A DNA stretch of 64,000 nt from Cupriavidus oxalaticus (GTDB lineage Bacteria > Pseudomonadota > Gammaproteobacteria > Burkholderiales > Burkholderiaceae), in assembly GCF_016894385.1 (NCBI RefSeq), contig NZ_CP069812.1:2790001-2854000 (forward strand), read 5' to 3'. Numbering within the stretch: the first letter of the stretch is position 1; each line of letters starts with the position of its first letter. Both the position numbers and the translations under genes were made by a program. Below the pieces are notes generated by a model that did not search any database, had not been told where the DNA came from, and was given only the letters and a program-made list of their open reading frames with translations. This document shows, in pieces, positions 36,852 through 46,247 of this stretch.

Positions 36852-38393
36852 TCAGTCGCCTTGGCGTTGCGATTCCAGCAGCGCCCGCAGCTGGGGCTTC
36901 ATCACCTTGCCCAGCGCGCTGCGCGGCAGGTCGTCGAGCAGCACCACGTCCCGCGGCAGCTTGAAGCGGGCGATACGGGCCGCCAGCGCCTCGCGCACCG
37001 GCGCCGGGGCCAGCGGCGCGCGGTCGGCGCCCGGCGCCGGCACGATCACCGCCACCGGCACCTCGCCCCAGCGCGCGTCGGCCACCCCCACCACCGCGCA
37101 CTCCTGCACGCCGGGCAGGCCGAGCAGCACATTCTCGATCTCGGCCGGATAGATGTTCTCGCCGCCGGAAATGATCATGTCCTTGCTGCGGCCGACCACC
37201 TCGATGCAGCCGTCGGCATCGCGGTGGGCCAGGTCGCCGGAGCGGAACCAGCCGCCGGGCAGGCCGTCGTCGGGCTGGTTCCAGTATCCGGCCATGACAT
37301 TGGGGCCCTGCACCCATAATTCGCCGACTTCGCCCTGCGCCACCTCGGCGCCGTCGGGCCCGGCCAGCCGCACGGCCACCTCCGGCACCGGCCAGCCGGC
37401 ATAGCCGGGCCGCGCCATGGCGTCTTCCAGCTTCAGCGCGACCGACACCGGTCCGGTCTCGGTCGCGCCATAGACCTGGCCGAGTGGCACACCGCGCGCG
37501 TGGAACGCGTCGATATACGACCGGGGGATCGTCGCGGAGCCGGCCATCACGCCGCGCAGCGGCGACAGGTCGGCGCCGTCCCAGCCGGGATGCTCCAGCA
37601 CCGCGCGCAGCGTGGCCGGCACCATCAGCGCCAGGCTCGGGCACGCTTGCGCGACCGACGCCAGCCACGCGCCGGGCGCGAAACGGTCATGCAGCGTCAC
37701 CTGCGCACCGGCCAGCAGCGCCGGCAGCGTCTGGATGCACAGGCCGCCGACATGGAAGGTCGGCAGCACCGACAGCACGTGGTCGTCCCGCGTCATGCCG
37801 TGCGCCCACCAGCTGGCGCGCGCATTGGCCAGCAGCCCGGCCTGCGTATGCACCGCGCCCTTGGGCTTGCCGGTGGTGCCCGAGGTGTAGGCCAGCAGCA
37901 GCGGCGCGTTGCCGGCAACGTGCGGATAGCTGGCAACGCGCGGCGCCGGGTGATCGACGATGCGATCCAGATGCGCCAGCCGGCACTGGCCATCGCCGGC
38001 TTCCTGCGCCAGCGCGGCATGCGCGTCGTCGTGGCACAGCAGCGCCAGCCGCGCATGGCCGGCGATGGCGTGCAGCTCGGCCGCGGCGAGCCGGTAGTTC
38101 AACGGCACGAACATCGCCCCGACCCGCGCGCAGGCGAACAGCAGCACCAGCTGCAATGCATGGTTCAGGCACAGCGTGCCGACCCGGTCGCCGGGGCGGA
38201 TGCCCCAGGTGGCCACCAGGTGCGCGCTGGCCAGCTCCACACGGCGCCACAGCTCGCCGTAGCTGAACGTGCGACCGAGATAGTGCAGCGCGGGCCGCTG
38301 CGGCGCCGCATCGGCGTGCGCCCACAGCAGGGCCGGCAGCGTGCCGGGCCCGGCGTCGCCGCAAAGGGACGGGCCACTGCGGGCGCCGCTCAT
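36852..38393 (-). CDS. AMP-dependent acyl/aryl-CoA ligase in the NicX-like operon
   Basis: A 513-residue adenylate-forming enzyme. The phosphate loop is YTSGTTGKPKGAVHTQ, followed by GQVYGATETGPVSV, FRSGDLAHRDADGCIEVVGR and the C-terminal LPRSALGKVMKPQLRALLE with the catalytic Lys. It makes a CoA thioester from an unknown carboxylic acid. The ATG at 38393 overlaps the stop of the upstream ACAD-fold gene (ATGA), so it is translationally coupled and must belong to that pathway. The size and central motifs are those of short/medium-chain or aromatic acid ligases rather than long-chain FadD. Confidence 0.88.
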   Translation of the reverse strand: MSGARSGPSLCGDAGPGTLPALLWAHADAAPQRPALHYLGRTFSYGELWRRVELASAHLVATWGIRPGDRVGTLCLNHALQLVLLFACARVGAMFVPLNYRLAAAELHAIAGHARLALLCHDDAHAALAQEAGDGQCRLAHLDRIVDHPAPRVASYPHVAGNAPLLLAYTSGTTGKPKGAVHTQAGLLANARASWWAHGMTRDDHVLSVLPTFHVGGLCIQTLPALLAGAQVTLHDRFAPGAWLASVAQACPSLALMVPATLRAVLEHPGWDGADLSPLRGVMAGSATIPRSYIDAFHARGVPLGQVYGATETGPVSVALKLEDAMARPGYAGWPVPEVAVRLAGPDGAEVAQGEVGELWVQGPNVMAGYWNQPDDGLPGGWFRSGDLAHRDADGCIEVVGRSKDMIISGGENIYPAEIENVLLGLPGVQECAVVGVADARWGEVPVAVIVPAPGADRAPLAPAPVREALAARIARFKLPRDVVLLDDLPRSALGKVMKPQLRALLESQRQGD

Positions 38394-39643
38394 TCGTCGC
38401 GCTCGCCGGATTCGTACAGCGTTTCGCGGCCCATGCGGTCCAGGATCAGTTCGGCGGTCCACGGCAGCATCAGCGCGCCGCAGCGCGAGTCGCGGTACAG
38501 GCGCTCCAGCGGCAGGTCCTTGAGCATCGACTGCCCGCCGCAGGTGCGGATCGCCAGCCGCGCGATATCGTTGGCGCCTTCCATCACGGTGTAGTGCGCG
38601 GCGTACAGGCGCAGGCGCTCGTCCTTGGAAGGGTTCGGCTTCGCTTCATGGATCACGCGCCAGAAGATCGAGCGCATGTTCTCCAGCTGGATGCGCATCT
38701 GCGCCACCGCGATCTGCTTGGTCGGGTACATGCGGCGCTTGACCGGCGGCTGGCCCGGCACCTCGCCGCGCAGGTACTGCACGGTGAAGTCGTAGGCGGC
38801 CTGCGCCACGCCGAGGTAGGTCGGCGACAGCGTGAAGAACATGGCCGGCCACGTCTGCGCGGCGCGGTAGTAGACCCCGCGCGGCATCAGCTGCTCCTGG
38901 TCGGGCACGAACACGTCCTTGAGCAGCAGCGTGCGCGAGACCGTGCCGCGCATGCCCATCGGGTCCCATGCGCCGGTGACGGTGAGGCCGTCGGCCTTGC
39001 CCGGCACGGCGATATAGAGGGTATCGCGCATGTCGGGATGGTGGTCGCCGCGGTCCTCGGTGCAGAGGATGCCGTAGTAATCGGCCGCGCCCGACAGCGA
39101 CGCGAAGATCTTGCGGCCGTTCAGCACCCAGCCGCCTTCGACCTTGCGCGCGGTGGTGCCGAACGGCGCCTTGCCGGCGGCCGCGGCCGAGCCTTCCGAG
39201 AACGGCTGCGCGTAGACCGCGCCGTCGCGCACCACGCGCGCGAAATGCAGCGCGCGGCGGGCCTCGTGCTCGGCGCGCTGTCCGGGCGTCATCTCGATGC
39301 CATCGGACAGCGTGCCGGTCCACATGGTCGAGCAGATATGCATGTTGTACGTCAGCGCCGTGGCGCCGCAGAAGCGGCCGATCTCGGCGCCCACCATGCA
39401 GTAGGTGGCAAAGTCCGCGCCCTCGCCACCGAAGGCTTCCGGCACGCACAGCGCCAGCAGCCCGGCTTCGCGCAGGTCATCGTAGTTGGCGAAGGGAAAA
39501 CTGGCCTCGCGGTCCCAGGTGGCGGCGCGCGCGGCGAAGCGTTCGCGGCCCAGGCGGTTGGCCAGCGCCAGCAGGCGCGCCTGGCGCGGGGTGAAATCCG
39601 CCGTACCGACGGCGGGAATGAAGTCGAGCTGGCCGGAAGGCAT
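38390..39643 (-). CDS. acyl-CoA-dehydrogenase-fold flavoprotein, possibly a monooxygenase
   Basis: A 417-residue protein with the three-part ACAD fold: N-terminal helices (LREAGLLALCVPEAFGGEGA), a middle beta domain (WVLNGRKIFASLSGAADYYG) and C-terminal helices. The usual catalytic Glu region, Tyr-Glu-Gly-Thr, is replaced by LYRDSRCGALMLPWTAELIL (residues 382-401). That form occurs in ACAD-fold proteins including flavin-dependent hydroxylases, so it may be a reduced-flavin monooxygenase rather than a dehydrogenase. A flavin reductase gene is divergent at 41740. It is coupled by ATGA to the ligase and lies 78 bases after the hydrolase gene. Confidence 0.82.
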   Translation of the reverse strand: MPSGQLDFIPAVGTADFTPRQARLLALANRLGRERFAARAATWDREASFPFANYDDLREAGLLALCVPEAFGGEGADFATYCMVGAEIGRFCGATALTYNMHICSTMWTGTLSDGIEMTPGQRAEHEARRALHFARVVRDGAVYAQPFSEGSAAAAGKAPFGTTARKVEGGWVLNGRKIFASLSGAADYYGILCTEDRGDHHPDMRDTLYIAVPGKADGLTVTGAWDPMGMRGTVSRTLLLKDVFVPDQEQLMPRGVYYRAAQTWPAMFFTLSPTYLGVAQAAYDFTVQYLRGEVPGQPPVKRRMYPTKQIAVAQMRIQLENMRSIFWRVIHEAKPNPSKDERLRLYAAHYTVMEGANDIARLAIRTCGGQSMLKDLPLERLYRDSRCGALMLPWTAELILDRMGRETLYESGERDE

Positions 39644-39721
39644 GTCGCGGTCTCCTTGGCGCCGGCCGCTAGGAAGCGGCGCCGTTGTTCTGGTTTTCTG
39701 GTGCTGCGGGACCGGCGCGCG

Positions 39722-40540
39722 TCAGCGCACCGGGAAATGCCGTTGCAGGAAAGCGAGCACGGGCGCGTTGAAGGCCGCGGGCCGCTCCATGCAGGCCAGG
39801 TGGCCGACATCGGGCAGGCAGTGGTATTCGGCGCCGGGGATGCGCTGCGCCATGCGCTGCATCACCTCGGGCGAGGCGTTGGTGTCGTGCTGGCCGGCCA
39901 GCGCCAGCACCGGCACGGCGATGTGCGGCAGCGCGTCGCGCTGGTTGAAGCGCACCAGCGCGCCCAGCGCGGCGCGGTAGGCGGGCGCGGGCACGGCAGC
40001 CATCACGCTCGTGGCGAAGGCCACCGCGGGCGCCTCGGCGTCCGGCGCCACCATCGTGCGCACCAGCCCCGCCGCCATCTCGGCCATGCTCTTGCCGGCG
40101 TCCAGCGGCGCGGTGCGCGCGGCGACGAACTCGCGCTGCCACGGCCCGTCGCCCTTGCCGAACGCGGGCGAGGTGCCGGACAGCACCATGCCGTCGACCA
40201 GCGCCGGCGTGGCGGCATACGCCTGCTGCGCCACCATGCCGCCCATGCTGTGGCCGAGCAGCACCACGCGCCGGCCGGCCTCGCGCTCGGCCTGCAGCAG
40301 CGGCGCCAGCGCGCGGGCCAGGCCGTCGAAGTCATAGGGATCGATCATGGCGCTGTCGCCATAGCCGGGCATGTCCCACGCCAGCGCGCGGTAGCCGGCC
40401 TGCGCCAGCGCTTCGCCCTGCGCCGGCCACGCGGCCTTGCCGCCGCCGATGCCGTGCAGCATCACGACCGCGACCGGGCCCTCGCCCCATTCCAGCGTGG
40501 CGATACCGTTGCCGTGCTTGCGGAGGACCGGGGCGCTCAT
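39722..40540 (-). CDS. alpha/beta hydrolase of the NicX-like operon
   Basis: A 272-residue alpha/beta hydrolase. The nucleophile elbow is LLGHSMGGMVAQ with Ser98; Asp219 (LALAGQHDTNAS) and His247 (LPDVGHLACMERP) complete the triad, and VMLHGIGGGKAAW forms the oxyanion region. Its start codon overlaps the stop of the NicX-like gene by four bases. In nicotinate catabolism NicD, a hydrolase of this fold and size, removes formate from N-formylmaleamate, the product of NicX, so an analogous role on a ring-cleavage product is likely. The actual substrate is not known. Confidence 0.88.
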   Translation of the reverse strand: MSAPVLRKHGNGIATLEWGEGPVAVVMLHGIGGGKAAWPAQGEALAQAGYRALAWDMPGYGDSAMIDPYDFDGLARALAPLLQAEREAGRRVVLLGHSMGGMVAQQAYAATPALVDGMVLSGTSPAFGKGDGPWQREFVAARTAPLDAGKSMAEMAAGLVRTMVAPDAEAPAVAFATSVMAAVPAPAYRAALGALVRFNQRDALPHIAVPVLALAGQHDTNASPEVMQRMAQRIPGAEYHCLPDVGHLACMERPAAFNAPVLAFLQRHFPVR

Positions 40541-41607
40541 GCCGACACCTCCACCAGCTGGCCTGCCTCGACTTCATTGCGGCCATCGAGCGAGACCGTG
40601 CAGTTGCGCAGCGGCAGGTCGAAATGGCCCAGCGTATGGCGGCCCGCCACCTCGTTGGCGCCGGTGGAGAACAGGAAGTTGCCGCCGAACGCGCGCAGCT
40701 CGGTGCCGTTGCAGTCGCGCTTGTCGTAGAACGTCAGCGCATCCCAGCGCGCCGTCCGGTTCAGGCCCCAGCCGACGTGCGAGACCGCATACGCGTCGCG
40801 CGTGCCCTCGCGGTCGGCCCAGGCCTGGTAGTAGCCGCGCATCATGTCGGCGTCGACGCCCTGCCCTTCGACGCCGACGATGTAGTCGTCCTCGATATGG
40901 CAGACCACGGTGTCGCGCAGGTAGGTCTTGAAGGTCAGGTTGACGTCGCCCGGCGCCAGCACCAGCGTGCCGTTGACCTGGCGGCTGGCCGGGAACGCCA
41001 GGCACAGGCCGCCCGGCCAGTGCGAGACCTGCCCCGGCTTGCTGCAGAAGCCCCAGACGCCGCCCACGCGGGCGTCGGCCAGGCCGATGCGCAGCTCGGT
41101 GCCGGCGGCGGAATGCACGCGCATTGCCTGCGCGCCGCGCAGGCGCTTCATCGCGGCGCGCACGGTGCCTTCCAGCGCCGGGTCGGGCTGGCAGCGCTCC
41201 AGGATCTCCGGGTGTTCGTTGCTGACCATCAGCATGCGCGGCACCACGCCGTCGGCGCCGCGCAGGATCAGCGGCAGCTCGGGCGCATGCAGCAGGCCTT
41301 CGACGGTGCAGTCGAGCACCAGGTGGCAGCGGGACAGCGCGGCCACGACCGGGGCGAGGTGTTGCAGGGCATCGCTGGCGCCGGTCGAGCGTACCGGCGC
41401 CGGCGCGCTGAGTGCCGGCGTCGGCACCTGGATCCGCACCGGCGTGGCGCCCAGCGACTGCACCGCCAGTTCGGCCAAGGCCACGTTGACAGGGCGGGAT
41501 TGCGACTCCGTTACAATTCCAACGACTTCCGCGCCCTGCAGGGCACAGAGTTCCAGGGTGCGCCGGAACGCCGCCAGCCAGCGGTGTTCGATCTGCTCGA
41601 TGAGCAT
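40537..41607 (-). CDS. NicX-like (2,5-dihydroxypyridine dioxygenase family) extradiol dioxygenase
   Basis: A 356-residue protein resembling NicX, the non-haem iron enzyme that opens 2,5-dihydroxypyridine, and more distantly M29 aminopeptidases. The conserved C-terminal half reads VSHWPGGLCLAFP, GTLVLAPGDVNLTFK, AVSHVGWGLNRTARWDAL, RAFGGNFLFSTGANEVAGR and GHFDLPLRNCTV. His277, His328 and Asp330 align by eye with the iron ligands reported for P. putida NicX. The ATG at 41607 follows AGGAGA. It is the first gene of a leftward operon and is divergent from a flavin reductase; the N-terminal half differs enough that the substrate may not be dihydroxypyridine itself. Confidence 0.82.
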   Translation of the reverse strand: MLIEQIEHRWLAAFRRTLELCALQGAEVVGIVTESQSRPVNVALAELAVQSLGATPVRIQVPTPALSAPAPVRSTGASDALQHLAPVVAALSRCHLVLDCTVEGLLHAPELPLILRGADGVVPRMLMVSNEHPEILERCQPDPALEGTVRAAMKRLRGAQAMRVHSAAGTELRIGLADARVGGVWGFCSKPGQVSHWPGGLCLAFPASRQVNGTLVLAPGDVNLTFKTYLRDTVVCHIEDDYIVGVEGQGVDADMMRGYYQAWADREGTRDAYAVSHVGWGLNRTARWDALTFYDKRDCNGTELRAFGGNFLFSTGANEVAGRHTLGHFDLPLRNCTVSLDGRNEVEAGQLVEVSA

Positions 41608-41729
41608 GTCTTGTCTCCTGCCTGTTATCGTGGCGGCATGCGCCGCACTGTTTTTGCGCCTCGACCGACACCCGCTGCAGGGCGGCGTGTCAGCGGACTT
41701 GGTTGAAGTCCCTGGCGCGAATAATATAT

Positions 41730-41741
41730 ATGAAATTTCAT
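41730..41741. promoter_or_regulatory. candidate MarR operator at the start of the flavin reductase gene
   Basis: A perfect palindrome ATGAAATTTCAT whose right end overlaps the ATG of the flavin reductase gene and which lies in the 132-base divergent region. An AT-rich stretch just to its left (41719-41730) may be a -10 region. Binding here would repress the rightward genes, and possibly the leftward operon. Confidence 0.5.
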
Positions 41742-42321
41742 GAACTCCAGTGGAGCCCCCATGGGCATGCCTGAGGCCCAGCCACGGATCGCCAACGCCG
41801 CCGCCGCACCGGACTTCGATGCGCAGCATTTCCGCCGCACGCTGTCGCAGTTCGCGACTGGCGTGACGGTGATCACCACGCGCGCCAGCGCCGAATCGGT
41901 CGCGGCCGGCGCGCCGCCGTTCATCGGCATCACCGCCAGCTCGTTCAACTCGGTGTCGCTGGACCCGCCGCTGGTGCTGTGGAGCATGGCCACGCGCGCC
42001 AACAGCCTGCCGATGTTCCGCGACGGCACCCACTACATCATCAATGTGCTGTCGTCGTCGCAACTGGACCTGTGCCAGCGCTTCGCCACACTGAAGGGCG
42101 ACCGTTTCGCAGGCGTCGACTACCGGCTGTCGGCCACCGGCCTGCCGATCCTGGCCAATGCGCTGGCCTGGTTCGAATGCCATAACCGCAGCCGCTACGA
42201 CGAGGGCGACCATGTGATCTTCGTCGGCGAGGTGGAGCGCTGCGGCGTGCTCGAAGGCCCGGACGGCCCGCTGGTGTTCCAGGGCGGGCAGTTTTCCACC
42301 ACCAGTCCGCTCGAGCCCTGA
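41740..42321 (+). CDS. flavin reductase of a probable two-component monooxygenase
   Basis: A 193-residue FMN-binding split-barrel protein. The family pattern is FRRTLSQFATGVTVITTRAS, GITASSFNSVSLDPPLVLWS, FRDGTHYIINVLSSSQLDLC and ECHNRSRYDEGDHVIFVGEV. Such reductases (HpaC, NtaB type) supply reduced flavin to a partner hydroxylase, here possibly the ACAD-fold protein of the divergent operon. The start is given as 41740; ATGs at 41761 and 41767 are possible and would leave the palindrome wholly outside the gene. A MarR gene follows after 16 bases. Confidence 0.88.
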   Translation: MNSSGAPMGMPEAQPRIANAAAAPDFDAQHFRRTLSQFATGVTVITTRASAESVAAGAPPFIGITASSFNSVSLDPPLVLWSMATRANSLPMFRDGTHYIINVLSSSQLDLCQRFATLKGDRFAGVDYRLSATGLPILANALAWFECHNRSRYDEGDHVIFVGEVERCGVLEGPDGPLVFQGGQFSTTSPLEP

Positions 42322-42337
42322 GCGCGCGCGGCCCATC

Positions 42338-42775
42338 ATGGCGGACCAGCCTTTCGTCGACGGCTACCTGGCCTACCTGCTGGCCCGGGCCAGCCACCTG
42401 ATTTCCGGCGAATTCCACCGCGAGGTCGAGGCCCGCGGCCTGTCCGTGCCGGAATGGCGCGTGCTGGCAACGCTGGCCGACCGCGATGACTGCACCATCG
42501 GCGCGCTGGCCGAAATCACGCTGACCAAGCAGCCCACGCTGACCAAGCTGGTCGACCGCATGGCCGCCGAGGGGCTGGTCAGGCGCACCGCCGGCACCAC
42601 CGACCGCCGCCATGCGCTGATCTCGATCACGCCGCACGGGCTGGCGCTGGCCCGGCCGCTGCTGGAACGCGCCGCGCAGCATGAGCGCGCGGTGCTGAAC
42701 GATTTCGGGCCCGAGCAGGGGGCGCAGCTCAAGGAAACGCTGCGGCAGCTGATCGCGCTGCACACGCAGCGCTAG
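42338..42775 (+). CDS. MarR family regulator
   Basis: A 145-residue winged helix-turn-helix protein. The recognition region is [30 protein letters not shown] (residues 54-83) and the wing is [20 protein letters not shown]. MarR repressors leave DNA when they bind a phenolic or similar ligand; NicR of nicotinate catabolism is of this family. It is co-transcribed with the flavin reductase and probably controls both sides of the divergent region. Its stop codon shares CTAG with the stop of the convergent kynR. Confidence 0.92.
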
Positions 42776-43257
42776 GCGCCTTCCCCGCCCGCCTTCAGGA
42801 TCGCCAGCGGCGAGCTGTCGGTCTTGATCCGCTGCAGCACGATGTTCGAGCGGATATCCATCACGCCCTTGGTGCGGTACAGCCGGTTCACGATGAAGTC
42901 CGAGTAGTGCTTCAGGTTGCGCGCCTGCACGCGCAAAATGTAGTTGCTGTCGCCGGTGATGATGTATGCCGACAGCACCTCGGGCCACGACTGCACCGCG
43001 GCGATAAAGGTGTCGTGCCAGCCCTCCACGTCATGGCGCATCGACACCTGCACAATGGCCTCCAACTCAAGCCCGAGTTGCTCGGCATCGAACCAGGCGC
43101 GGTAGCCGCCGATCACCCCCGACTCTTCCAGCAGCCGCACGCGGCGCAGGCATGCCGAAGGCGACAGCGCCACCCGATCGGCCAGGTCCTGGTTGCTGAT
43201 GCGGCCGTTCTCCTGCAGGCAGGTAAGGATGCGCAAATCGATAGGATCGAGGGTCAT
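42772..43257 (-). CDS. kynR: Lrp/AsnC family regulator of the kyn operon
   Basis: A 161-residue protein with an N-terminal helix-turn-helix (residues 3-55, [40 protein letters not shown]) and a C-terminal RAM ligand-binding domain ([33 protein letters not shown]). In Pseudomonas KynR, an Lrp-type activator that responds to L-kynurenine, is divergent from kynBU, the same arrangement as here. The ATG at 43257 gives the standard length. Two similar 16-base boxes in the intergenic region, one touching its own start codon, suggest autoregulation. Confidence 0.9.
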
Positions 43258-43302
43258 TCGAATTTCCTGCGATGTTTTTTTAGATCTTCGAATTTTATGC
43301 GA
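43257..43302. promoter_or_regulatory. candidate tandem KynR boxes
   Basis: TTCGAATTTCCTGCGA (43257-43272) and TTCGAATTTTATGCGA (43287-43302) match at 14 of 16 positions and are offset by exactly 30 bases, about three helical turns. The first abuts the kynR start codon. A -10-like TCTAAT at 43354-43359 could serve kynB. Confidence 0.6.
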
Positions 43303-43404
43303 AAGATGGCGTGCATGACCGCTCATTTCGCAAGCCTCTTCCCGGCAAATTTGTCTAATATGCCGACATCGAGGCAGACAACGACGGCACCGCCGCCCCA
43401 TGAC

Positions 43405-44055
43405 ATGACCGCCCCCAGACAAGACCCGCGCCGGCTGTGGGACATCAGCCCGCCGCTATCCCCGGCCACCCCGGTGTGGCCCGGCGACACCCCCTTCCAG
43501 CAGGCCCCCGCCTGGCAGATGGACGAACACTGCCCGGTCAATGTCGGCCGCATCACGCTGTCGCCGCACACCGGCGCCCACGCCGACGCGCCGCTGCACT
43601 ATGCCGCCGATGGCGCGCCGATCGGCGACGTGCCGCTGGCGCCGTACCTCGGCATCTGCCGGGTGATCCACTGCATCGGCGCAGCGCCGGTGGTGGAGCC
43701 GCGCCATGTCGAACATGCCCTGCAGGACCTGCCGCCGCGCGTGCTGCTGCGCACCTACCGTCAGGCGCCGCTGGCGCAGTGGGACCCTGCTTTCTGTGCC
43801 GTCGCCGCCGACACCATCGCGCTGCTCGCTTCGCATGGCGTGCAACTGGTCGGCATCGACACGCCTTCGCTCGATCCGCAGGCATCCAAGACCATGGACG
43901 CGCACAACGCCGTGCGCCGGCATGGGCTGGCGATCCTGGAAGGCATCGTGCTGGATGACGTCGCCGAAGGCGACTATGAGCTGATCGCGCTGCCGCTGCG
44001 CTTTGCCGGGCTCGATGCCAGCCCGGTGCGCGCCGTGCTGCGCAGCCTGGACTGA
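43405..44055 (+). CDS. kynB: kynurenine formamidase
   Basis: A 216-residue metal-dependent hydrolase that converts N-formyl-L-kynurenine to L-kynurenine and formate. The metal motif [15 protein letters not shown] has His55, His59 and Asp61; the opening [20 protein letters not shown] and the [19 protein letters not shown] segment are typical of bacterial KynB. The ATG at 43405 is used; an ATG at 43400 is out of frame. It is the first gene of kynB-kynU-kynA, divergent from kynR. Confidence 0.95.
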
Positions 44056-44091: not shown

Positions 44092-45348
44092 ATGACGACC
44101 ATTGACCGCGAGCACTGTCTGCAGCTCGACCAGCAAGACCCGCTGCGCCCCCTGCGCGAGCAATTCGCCCTGCCCGAGGGCGTGATCTACCTCGATGGCA
44201 ACTCGCTCGGCGCCCGCCCGCGCGCCGCCGCCGCGCGTGCCGCCCAGGTGGTGGCCGAGGAATGGGGCGATGGCCTGATCCGCAGCTGGAACACCGCCGG
44301 CTGGTTCGAACTGCCGCAGCGGCTGGGTAACAAGCTCGCGCCGCTGGTCGGCGCCGGCGAGAATGAAGTGGTGGTGACCGACACCACCTCGATCAACCTG
44401 TTCAAGGTGCTGGCCGCCGCGCTGCGCGTGCAGCAGACGCGCGATCCGGCGCGCAAGGTGATCGTGTCCGAGGCCAGCAACTTCCCGACCGACCTCTATA
44501 TCGCCCAGGGCCTGGCCGACCTGCTGCAGCAGGGCTACTCGCTGCGTCTCGTCAACTCGCCGGCCGAGATCGACGCCGCCGTCGGCGCCGATACCGCGGT
44601 GCTGATGCTGACGCACGTCAACTACCAGAGCGGCGAGATGCTCGACATGGCCGCGCTGACCGAACTGGCCCATGCGCGCGGCGCGCTGACCGTGTGGGAC
44701 CTGTGCCACTCCGCGGGCGCCGTGCCGGTCAACCTGAAGGCGTCCGGCGCCGACTACGCCATCGGCTGCACCTACAAGTACCTGAACGGCGGCCCGGGCT
44801 CGCCCGCGTTCGTGTGGGTCGCGCCGGCGCTGCGCGATGCGTTCTGGCAGCCGCTGTCGGGCTGGTGGGGCCACGCCGCACCGTTCGCGATGGAACCGCA
44901 GTACCGACCGGTCGAAGGCGTGCGCCGCTTCCTGTGCGGCACGCAGCCGGTCACGTCGCTGGCGATGGTCGAGTGCGGGCTGGACATCTATGCCCAGACC
45001 AGCATGCAAGTGCTACGCGCCAAGTCGCTGCTCCTGACCGACCTCTTTATTGAACTGGTGGAAGCGCGCTGCGGCCACCATCCGCTGACGCTGGTCACGC
45101 CGCGCGAGCACGCGCGCCGCGGCAGCCAGGTGAGCTGGGAACATCCGGAAGGCTATGCCGTGGTGCAGGCGCTGATCGAGCGCGGCGTCATCGGCGACTA
45201 CCGCGAGCCGCGCATCGCGCGCTTCGGCTTCACGCCGCTGTACACCAGCTTCACCGAAGTCTGGGATGCGGTGGAAATCCTGCGCGATGTGCTGGACAGC
45301 GGCGCGTATCGCGATGCGCGCTTCCAGGTGCGCGGCCAGGTGACCTGA
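44092..45348 (+). CDS. kynU: kynureninase
   Basis: A 418-residue PLP enzyme that cleaves L-kynurenine to anthranilate and alanine. The cofactor Lys is Lys229 in [59 protein letters not shown] and [13 protein letters not shown] are all conserved. The length fits the family. It lies 36 bases after kynB and 14 before kynA in the same operon. Anthranilate made here could feed further catabolism or quinolone-type signals elsewhere in the genome. Confidence 0.97.
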
Positions 45349-45362
45349 TCGGGAGTTGCATC

Positions 45363-46247
45363 ATGAGTGAAATCAAGGGATGCCCCTTCTCGGGCGCGGC
45401 GAGCGTATCGCAAACGGCAGCGCAGGGCGATGACTGGCATGGCGCGCAGATGGATTTTGCCAGGGACATGAGCTATGGCGACTATCTCGGCCTGGACCAG
45501 ATCCTGAGCGCGCAGCACCCGCTGTCGCCGGATCACAACGAAATGCTGTTTATCGTGCAGCACCAGACCACCGAGCTGTGGATGAAGCTGATGCTGCACG
45601 AGCTGCGCGCCGCGCGCGAATCGGTCAAGGCCGACAGCCTGCCGCCGGCATTCAAGATGCTGACACGCGTGTCGCGCATCATGGACCAGCTGGTGCAGGC
45701 GTGGAACGTGCTGGCGACGATGACGCCGCCGGAGTATTCGGCGATGCGGCCTTACCTGGGGATGTCGTCCGGCTTCCAGTCGTACCAGTATCGGGAAATC
45801 GAATTCATCCTCGGCAACAAGAATGCGGCCATGCTGAAGCCGCATGCGCATCGGGCCGAGCATCTGGCGCTGGTGGAGATGGCGTTGAAGACGCCCTCTC
45901 TTTATGACGAAGCCATCCGCCTGATGGCGCGGCGCGGGTTTGCGATCGATGCGGAATGCGTCGAGCGCGACTGGACGCAGCCTGCCGGCTACAACGCTTC
46001 GGTTGAGGCGGCCTGGCTGGAGGTCTATCGCAATCCTTCCGCCCACTGGGAACTGTATGAACTTGGCGAAAAGTTCGTCGACCTGGAGGATTCGTTCCGG
46101 CAATGGCGGTTCCGGCATGTGACGACGGTTGAACGCGTGATCGGGTTCAAGCGTGGCACGGGCGGCACCGAGGGCGTCAGCTATTTGCGGAAGATGCTGG
46201 ATGTGGTGTTGTTTCCGGAGCTGTGGAGGTTGAGGACGGATCTTTGA
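45363..46247 (+). CDS. kynA: tryptophan 2,3-dioxygenase
   Basis: A 294-residue haem enzyme that opens the indole ring of L-tryptophan with oxygen, the first step of the pathway. The haem ligand is probably His252 in [20 protein letters not shown], and the substrate-contact His67 is in [38 protein letters not shown] is also characteristic. A GGGAG site precedes the ATG. It is the last gene of the kyn operon, although it catalyses the first reaction. Confidence 0.97.

Follow-up and report, generated by a model that had tools for sequence, protein, structure and literature searches.

NicX, the 2,5-dihydroxypyridine 5,6-dioxygenase of Pseudomonas putida (structures 7cn3, 7cnt, and 7cup), coordinates its iron through His265, Ser302, His318, and Asp320 and contacts its substrate with His105, Glu177, and His189, of which Glu177 touches both N1 and O1 (PMC7910607). 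The abm pathway of Azoarcus evansii metabolizes 2-aminobenzoate (anthranilate) aerobically in CoA-linked form by means of a fused monooxygenase/reductase and without a ring-cleavage dioxygenase (PMC4539516). Here we compare with these and other systems an uncharacterised divergent unit of six genes from Cupriavidus oxalaticus, built from known kinds of enzyme around a NicX-like dioxygenase and located in a stretch of 64,000 nucleotides (contig NZ_CP069812.1, positions 2,790,001 to 2,854,000; hereafter the window). No description of the unit was found in the literature searched, which is weak evidence since subscription papers were largely outside the search. The reading we favour, with somewhat less than even confidence, is that the unit is a catabolic module or branch of the 2-aminobenzoate network, in which hydroxylation of the ring at C5 precedes its opening by the NicX-like enzyme. 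We favour it because of the kyn and abm genes that accompany the unit, its co-occurrence with 2-aminobenzoyl-CoA monooxygenase/reductase (ACMR), a changed residue in the dioxygenase pocket, a by-product described for ACMR, and the lack of an anthranilate 1,2-dioxygenase scoring over cut-off in the genome.

Open reading frame (ORF) calls confirmed four leftward and two rightward genes and agree with the initial annotation in gene number, coordinates, and the presence of ATGA overlaps at two of the three leftward junctions. The leftward operon (minus strand) begins with the NicX-like Fe(II) ring-cleavage dioxygenase (40537..41607, 356 aa; identified by NicX match, alignment, and tree), followed by an alpha/beta hydrolase (39722..40540, 272 aa; Pfam Abhydrolase), a flavoprotein of the acyl-CoA dehydrogenase (ACAD) fold (38390..39643, 417 aa; Pfam Acyl-CoA_dh domains), and, last, an AMP-forming acyl/aryl-CoA ligase (36852..38393, 513 aa from the ATG at 38393; Pfam AMP-binding, 262 bits). 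On the plus strand lie a flavin reductase (41740..42321, 193 aa; Pfam Flavin_Reduct, 133 bits) and a MarR-family regulator (42338..42775, 145 aa; Pfam MarR_2/MarR). The four-base overlaps join dioxygenase to hydrolase (40537-40540) and ACAD protein to ligase (38390-38393); the hydrolase/ACAD junction is a gap. Ligase, ACAD protein, hydrolase, reductase, and MarR protein were recognised by Pfam and NCBIfam; the dioxygenase had zero matches to the local Pfam or NCBIfam models at 1e-3. The best protein-database match is a Cupriavidus taiwanensis entry (93%), and the best locus is that of Cupriavidus sp. amp6 (97%).

Among solved structures, NicX was the sole convincing match of the dioxygenase (E 2.5e-49; next match 0.15). 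Its iron ligands His277, Ser314, His328, and Asp330 align with His265, Ser302, His318, and Asp320 of NicX; His277, His328, and Asp330 had been singled out as conserved in the initial annotation, which overlooked the fourth ligand, Ser314. The four ligands are invariant in all 137 aligned rows including the window (the window protein is probably present twice, also as L085). The NicX positions Leu104, His105, and His189 are also kept in the window protein, and His189 is kept in 132 of the 137 rows. In contrast to NicX, the window protein has Val184, Lys190, and Val320 in place of Glu177, Glu183, and Glu308. At position 177, 17 rows carry E or Q, and the other 120 carry V (104), I (6), G (6), T (3), or N (1); of these 120, 115 have Lys or Arg at position 183. 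The 17 E/Q177 rows formed a single clade (support 1.0, FastTree) that includes NicX and two paralogues from the window's genome, whereas the window dioxygenase falls in a separate clade of this tree, which contained no M29 sequences. Judged from the alignment, the exchange of Glu177 may leave space for a carboxyl-bearing carbon at the former place of the pyridine nitrogen, and retention of His189 points to a polar substituent in the para position relative to the reactive hydroxyl, an arrangement that 5-hydroxyanthranilate has; a Val at position 177 could also accommodate a fused hydrophobic ring.

The substrate was proposed at the outset to differ from nicotinate, and the comparison bears this out. 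We keep the dioxygenase out of the 2,5-dihydroxypyridine dioxygenase class because the Glu177 contact is Val184, and its identity as a nicotinate/2,5-dihydroxypyridine enzyme was rejected on this replacement, on the separate clade, and on the nic-type clusters found elsewhere in the genome. The two paralogues (L098/L111 and L100/L112) are of the E/Q177 type and lie in gene sets of the order nicE-nicD-nicX-nicF (L111, G000:C1:737000-756900; L112, G000:C2:860000-879900), in which the nicE, nicD, and nicF names are our assumption; the L112 gene set matched no NCBIfam models at 1e-30. A large molybdopterin-type dehydrogenase adjoins one of these two clusters. Relatives of nicD, nicE, or nicF also occur at the E/Q177 loci L122, L123, L124, L127, L128, and L129, and none was found within the 4 kb of L125, L126, and L130; the two Q177 rows derive from L099 and L104. 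Around the window's unit no nicD-, nicE-, or nicF-like gene was seen among the window ORFs, as the initial annotation had reported for NicE and NicF. PF26233 is assigned to the dioxygenase homologues listed in the protein database, several of which (P0001, P0003, P0008, and others) bear the name peptidase M29. This name is probably a misnomer: the whole genome of the window yielded zero matches to PF02073 (M29 aminopeptidase) at 1e-3, with the control positive in 4 of 14 genomes. An aminopeptidase identity was thus rejected on the NicX match and the PF02073 result, and the placement with NicX originally proposed rests on the same two observations.

In a locus scan with one genome per species, 125 loci were confirmed and the best 80 kept (L001-L080); these come from Cupriavidus, Limnohabitans, other Burkholderiales (many of them metagenome bins), and Pandoraea. 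As 21 of the 80 were too short for the gene-order test, 59 were judged, including many close relatives (about 18 Cupriavidus) that are not independent cases. Hydrolase, ACAD protein, and ligase follow the dioxygenase in 59/59, and the complete six-gene order is present in 48/59, so that the expected recurrence in other Burkholderiales was found. Relatives at 50-66% retain much of the arrangement, both in other Burkholderiales (L102-L107) and in Alphaproteobacteria, where the divergent six-gene order recurs (L136, L157, L161, L163, L164, and L176). Reduced loci exist: L108 and L109 combine the dioxygenase (about 50%) and hydrolase with a single-component FAD monooxygenase instead of ACAD protein and reductase, only MarR of the five partners was found beside the dioxygenase in L158 and L162, and none of the five was found there in L166, L167, L168, and L175. 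In three even genome draws the dioxygenase clade, defined by matches at ≥46% identity, was present in 8/200, 10/299, and 28/249 genomes and is thus not rare.

To the right of the MarR gene lie an Lrp-type regulator (about 42772-43302, minus strand; an ORF whose match to the Lrp model is below cut-off) and, on the plus strand, kynB (about 43366-44055; arylformamidase model TIGR03035, 335.7 bits, over cut-off) and two ORFs that we take to be kynU (44092-45348) and kynA (45363-46247). For the latter, a relative in L157 (59%) matches Pfam Trp_dioxygenase. The products of kynB-kynU-kynA convert tryptophan to anthranilate. This adjoining operon and the tie to 2-aminobenzoyl-CoA metabolism were overlooked in the initial annotation; the aminobenzoates it listed for growth tests look a better guess than its pyridines. 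In 19 of the 80 loci at least two kyn genes are neighbours of the unit and in 35 at least three abm-type genes, with both in none. The large flavoprotein of L037 scored 1344.9 bits (cut-off 1078) with NF006101, a model named salicylyl-CoA 5-hydroxylase/oxidoreductase. We take it for the ACMR type in view of the accompanying RidA and benzoate-type ligase and of the kynA/kynU relatives located next to clusters of this kind in L180 and L183. Genes of this type also adjoin the dioxygenase in L102-L106, L132, L133, and L172, and a tryptophan 2,3-dioxygenase gene adjoins the unit in the alphaproteobacterial locus L157. The window's genome itself has an abm-type set (RidA, ligase, ACAD, enoyl-CoA hydratase, short-chain dehydrogenase, and ACMR) about 350 kb from the unit (L110), and none of its genes scored over the cut-off for anthranilate 1,2-dioxygenase (478.7 vs. 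671.9 bits). A published fitness study states that it did not include the breakdown of tryptophan through anthraniloyl-CoA monooxygenase/reductase (PMC9007349).

The association extends to whole genomes. An ACMR-type gene (NF006101) was present in 7/8, 10/10, and 27/28 clade genomes of the three draws, compared with 19/192, 32/289, and 54/221 genomes outside the clade (10-24%; Fisher p = 2e-6, 1e-9, and 5e-14, values inflated by related genomes; the draws were even rather than random). Pooled, 37 of 39 distinct clade genomes had ACMR, or 36/38 excluding the window's genome, which was included in the order and phylum draws. The two without it are G109 (L108, the monooxygenase type) and G537 (93% complete), whose locus L169 has dioxygenase, hydrolase, ACAD protein, ligase, and MarR. 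NicX-type rows at ≤40% identity were excluded from the counts (order draw: G098, G119, and G133; phylum draw: G119, G133, G414, G236, G248, G386, G302, G459, G465, and G472). Genomes with only the NicX type had ACMR in 2/3 (order) and 5/10 (phylum), richer than average; therefore part of the association reflects large catabolic genomes as such. These whole-genome searches scored the top candidates of the first look only. A separate ACMR check of 49 rows (33 of the 80 loci and 16 other genomes) was positive in 43, or in 42/48 if G420 and G503, which have identical places and look like one genome, are counted once; no ACMR was found in G109, G494, G501, G502, G511, and G514. KynU-like matches occurred in 39 of the 49 rows.

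Two-component ACAD-fold monooxygenases such as HsaA, DszC, and IacA resemble the window's ACAD protein in fold, reductase partner, and lack of the dehydrogenase Glu, but the protein scores far below the NCBIfam cut-offs for HsaA (63 of 450) and DszC (61.6 of 850). In 99 rows (members at ≥45% identity and the window), the column of the catalytic Glu of short-chain acyl-CoA dehydrogenase holds Pro in 96, a gap in 2, Arg in 1, and Glu in 0, and a flavin reductase partner is present in 48/59 units. A dehydrogenase is therefore unlikely, and the protein is probably the oxygenase component of a two-component monooxygenase; since the Glu is lacking and a reductase adjoins, monooxygenation is the natural guess, in keeping with the hydroxylase/reductase pair proposed before. 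The hydrolase, likened to NicD at the outset, is not closely related to it: it scores 33 bits against the genome's own NicD-like protein and 114-268 bits against eight hydrolases from related clusters, and a NicD orthologue was rejected on these values. Related hydrolases adjoin the dioxygenase in L108 and L109 even though neither locus showed a ligase, so the window's enzyme most likely acts on the ring-opened dioxygenase product. A pure thioesterase was rejected on the same loci; a double role is possible. The nearest solved relatives of the ligase are a fatty-acyl-CoA synthase and a feruloyl-CoA synthetase (best 338 bits).

For the favoured 2-aminobenzoate module we infer the substrate, every reaction, and the order of the steps as follows. 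The ligase would convert a 2-aminobenzoate to its CoA thioester, and the ACAD-fold flavoprotein, supplied with reduced flavin by the reductase, would introduce a ring hydroxyl para to the amino group. Next to this hydroxyl, the NicX-like Fe(II) dioxygenase would then open the ring of 5-hydroxyanthranilate or of its CoA ester, and the alpha/beta hydrolase would cut the ring-opened product. On paper, and as speculation, 5-hydroxyanthranilate cleaved next to its hydroxyl would lead to maleylacetate once formate is lost and the enamine is hydrolysed. ACMR is reported to form 5-hydroxyanthraniloyl-CoA if NADH runs short, an anthranilate-grown Arthrobacter contained a CoA ester with the matching formula, and the same strain converted 5-hydroxyanthranilate without growing on it (PMC3534580). 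The module may also catch 5-hydroxyanthraniloyl-CoA leaked by ACMR; if the dioxygenase handles this ester, the tie of the unit to ACMR would be explained. The proposed intermediate is shared with the 5-hydroxyanthranilate route of Nocardia opaca (Cain 1968, cited in PMC4539516), which, however, runs through gentisate and for which the available part of the citing paper names no genes; here NicX-like cleavage is proposed instead.

Several observations weigh against this mechanism. The abm pathway, of which none of the six proteins is a part, already includes a ligase, and the ring position hydroxylated in our scheme is also the one that ACMR attacks, which makes a further ligase and hydroxylase seem superfluous. 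The window's ligase scores only 126 bits against the anthranilate-CoA ligase 4wv3, compared with its best 338. Neither kyn nor abm neighbours were found in 26 of the 80 loci, many of them short, and 11 of the 59 judged loci lack the reductase, 4 of these also MarR. No reductase was found in the alphaproteobacterial loci L160, L165, and L173, where a P450 adjoins the unit (L160:11221-12492, L165:8044-9327, and L173:84-1376), possibly through a change of hydroxylase or of partner. The dependence is also one-sided: the unit is almost never present without ACMR, yet most ACMR genomes lack the clade, a pattern that suits a supplier of the abm pathway no less well. We know of no NicX-family enzyme that opens a benzene ring. 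C. metallidurans CH34 has annotated abm genes and no growth on anthranilate (PMC8879955), which is awkward for a simple link between ACMR and anthranilate growth. The more specific proposal, a further aerobic opening of anthranilate by 5-hydroxylation (perhaps as the CoA ester) and NicX-family cleavage, is put forward as a possibility about which we are rather doubtful.

The alternative that survives best, unlikely as we hold it to be, makes the unit a supplier of the abm pathway: another aromatic acid, e.g. indolic or quinolinic, would be converted to anthranilate or anthraniloyl-CoA, with the dioxygenase, like NicX, opening an N-heterocycle next to a CH-N carbon and the hydrolase freeing an N-formyl or similar group. 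This stays close to NicX chemistry and accounts for the presence of a second ligase, and it agrees with the one-sided dependence (ACMR in 37/39 clade genomes, most ACMR genomes without the clade) and with a unit adjoining another anthranilate supplier (kyn) or consumer (abm). ACAD-like proteins are among the indole oxidisers listed in PMC6221969. Against it, the ring-nitrogen contact Glu177 is replaced, the hydrolase is distant from NicD, and no indole- or quinoline-specific gene was recognised by eye beside the loci looked through. TRAP or other acid-type transporter genes near several alphaproteobacterial units also count against it in that they suggest an acid (DctP was Pfam-confirmed only in L136).

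Quite improbable, in our judgement, is that another ortho-substituted benzoate such as salicylate is activated with CoA, 5-hydroxylated, and opened in a gentisate-like ring cleavage. The known salicylyl-CoA/gentisate route follows the same logic, NF006101 carries the salicylyl-CoA name, and gentisate-dioxygenase-like genes lie near units in L104, L137, and L138; but the kyn neighbours and the RidA- and kyn-linked abm clusters indicate an amino compound, and an ordinary gentisate 1,2-dioxygenase is encoded at another place in the window's genome (586.6 bits, cut-off 442.1). On the latter ground, a weak argument, gentisate itself was rejected as the main substrate. Opening of 2,5-dihydroxypyridine or a carboxylated relative is highly improbable: NicX is the only convincing solved relative and the iron site and the Leu104 and His105 positions are kept, but Glu177 is replaced, the E/Q177 sequences form their own clade, and nicE- and nicF-like neighbours are missing here and present in the two clusters elsewhere in the genome.

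The unit is probably under MarR control. A perfect palindrome, ATGAAATTTCAT, occurs as a single copy in the window at 41730..41741, overlapping the reductase start, and is a candidate MarR operator to which MarR is predicted to bind. Among the loci of L001-L080, 61 were tested and 42 had a perfect A+T-rich palindrome of 10-14 bases between the divergent genes, the word being mostly ATGAAATTTCAT or ATGAATATTCAT; of 14 alpha-type loci, none had one. A promoter scan returned 0 promoter-like sites and 3 terminator-like sites, not above shuffles.

Some loci were unusual in their surroundings. L137 and L138 have dioxygenase and ACAD relatives (51-53%) together with a glutamine-synthetase-like protein and a gentisate-dioxygenase-like cupin, L138 additionally with a carbon-nitrogen hydrolase and an FAA hydrolase; perhaps they encode a related route for a different aromatic amine. 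In L139, from a gamma genome, a 270-aa protein (L139:10775-11587) that by eye resembles 2-keto-4-pentenoate hydratase and has no Pfam or NCBIfam match adjoins dioxygenase and hydrolase. The unit lies near homogentisate-pathway-like genes in L159 and L165, with homogentisate dioxygenase Pfam-confirmed in L165 only. L036 (CALQKH020000018.1), recorded as an Akkermansia muciniphila metagenome bin, has a Limnohabitans-like abm and six-gene locus, and its contig is probably wrongly binned.

If the favoured reading is correct, the dioxygenase would be the first NicX-family enzyme shown to open a benzene ring, and it would show that a NicX-type iron site can be retuned by exchange of the residue that holds the pyridine nitrogen. 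The 5-hydroxyanthranilate route described in 1968 would gain its genes from the unit, and a gap to which a review draws attention, a gentisate-type anthranilate route with an "unreported enzyme" (PMC6221969), would be closed. For bacteria that use the abm pathway, the unit would provide a second exit for anthranilate or a catcher of the ACMR by-product.

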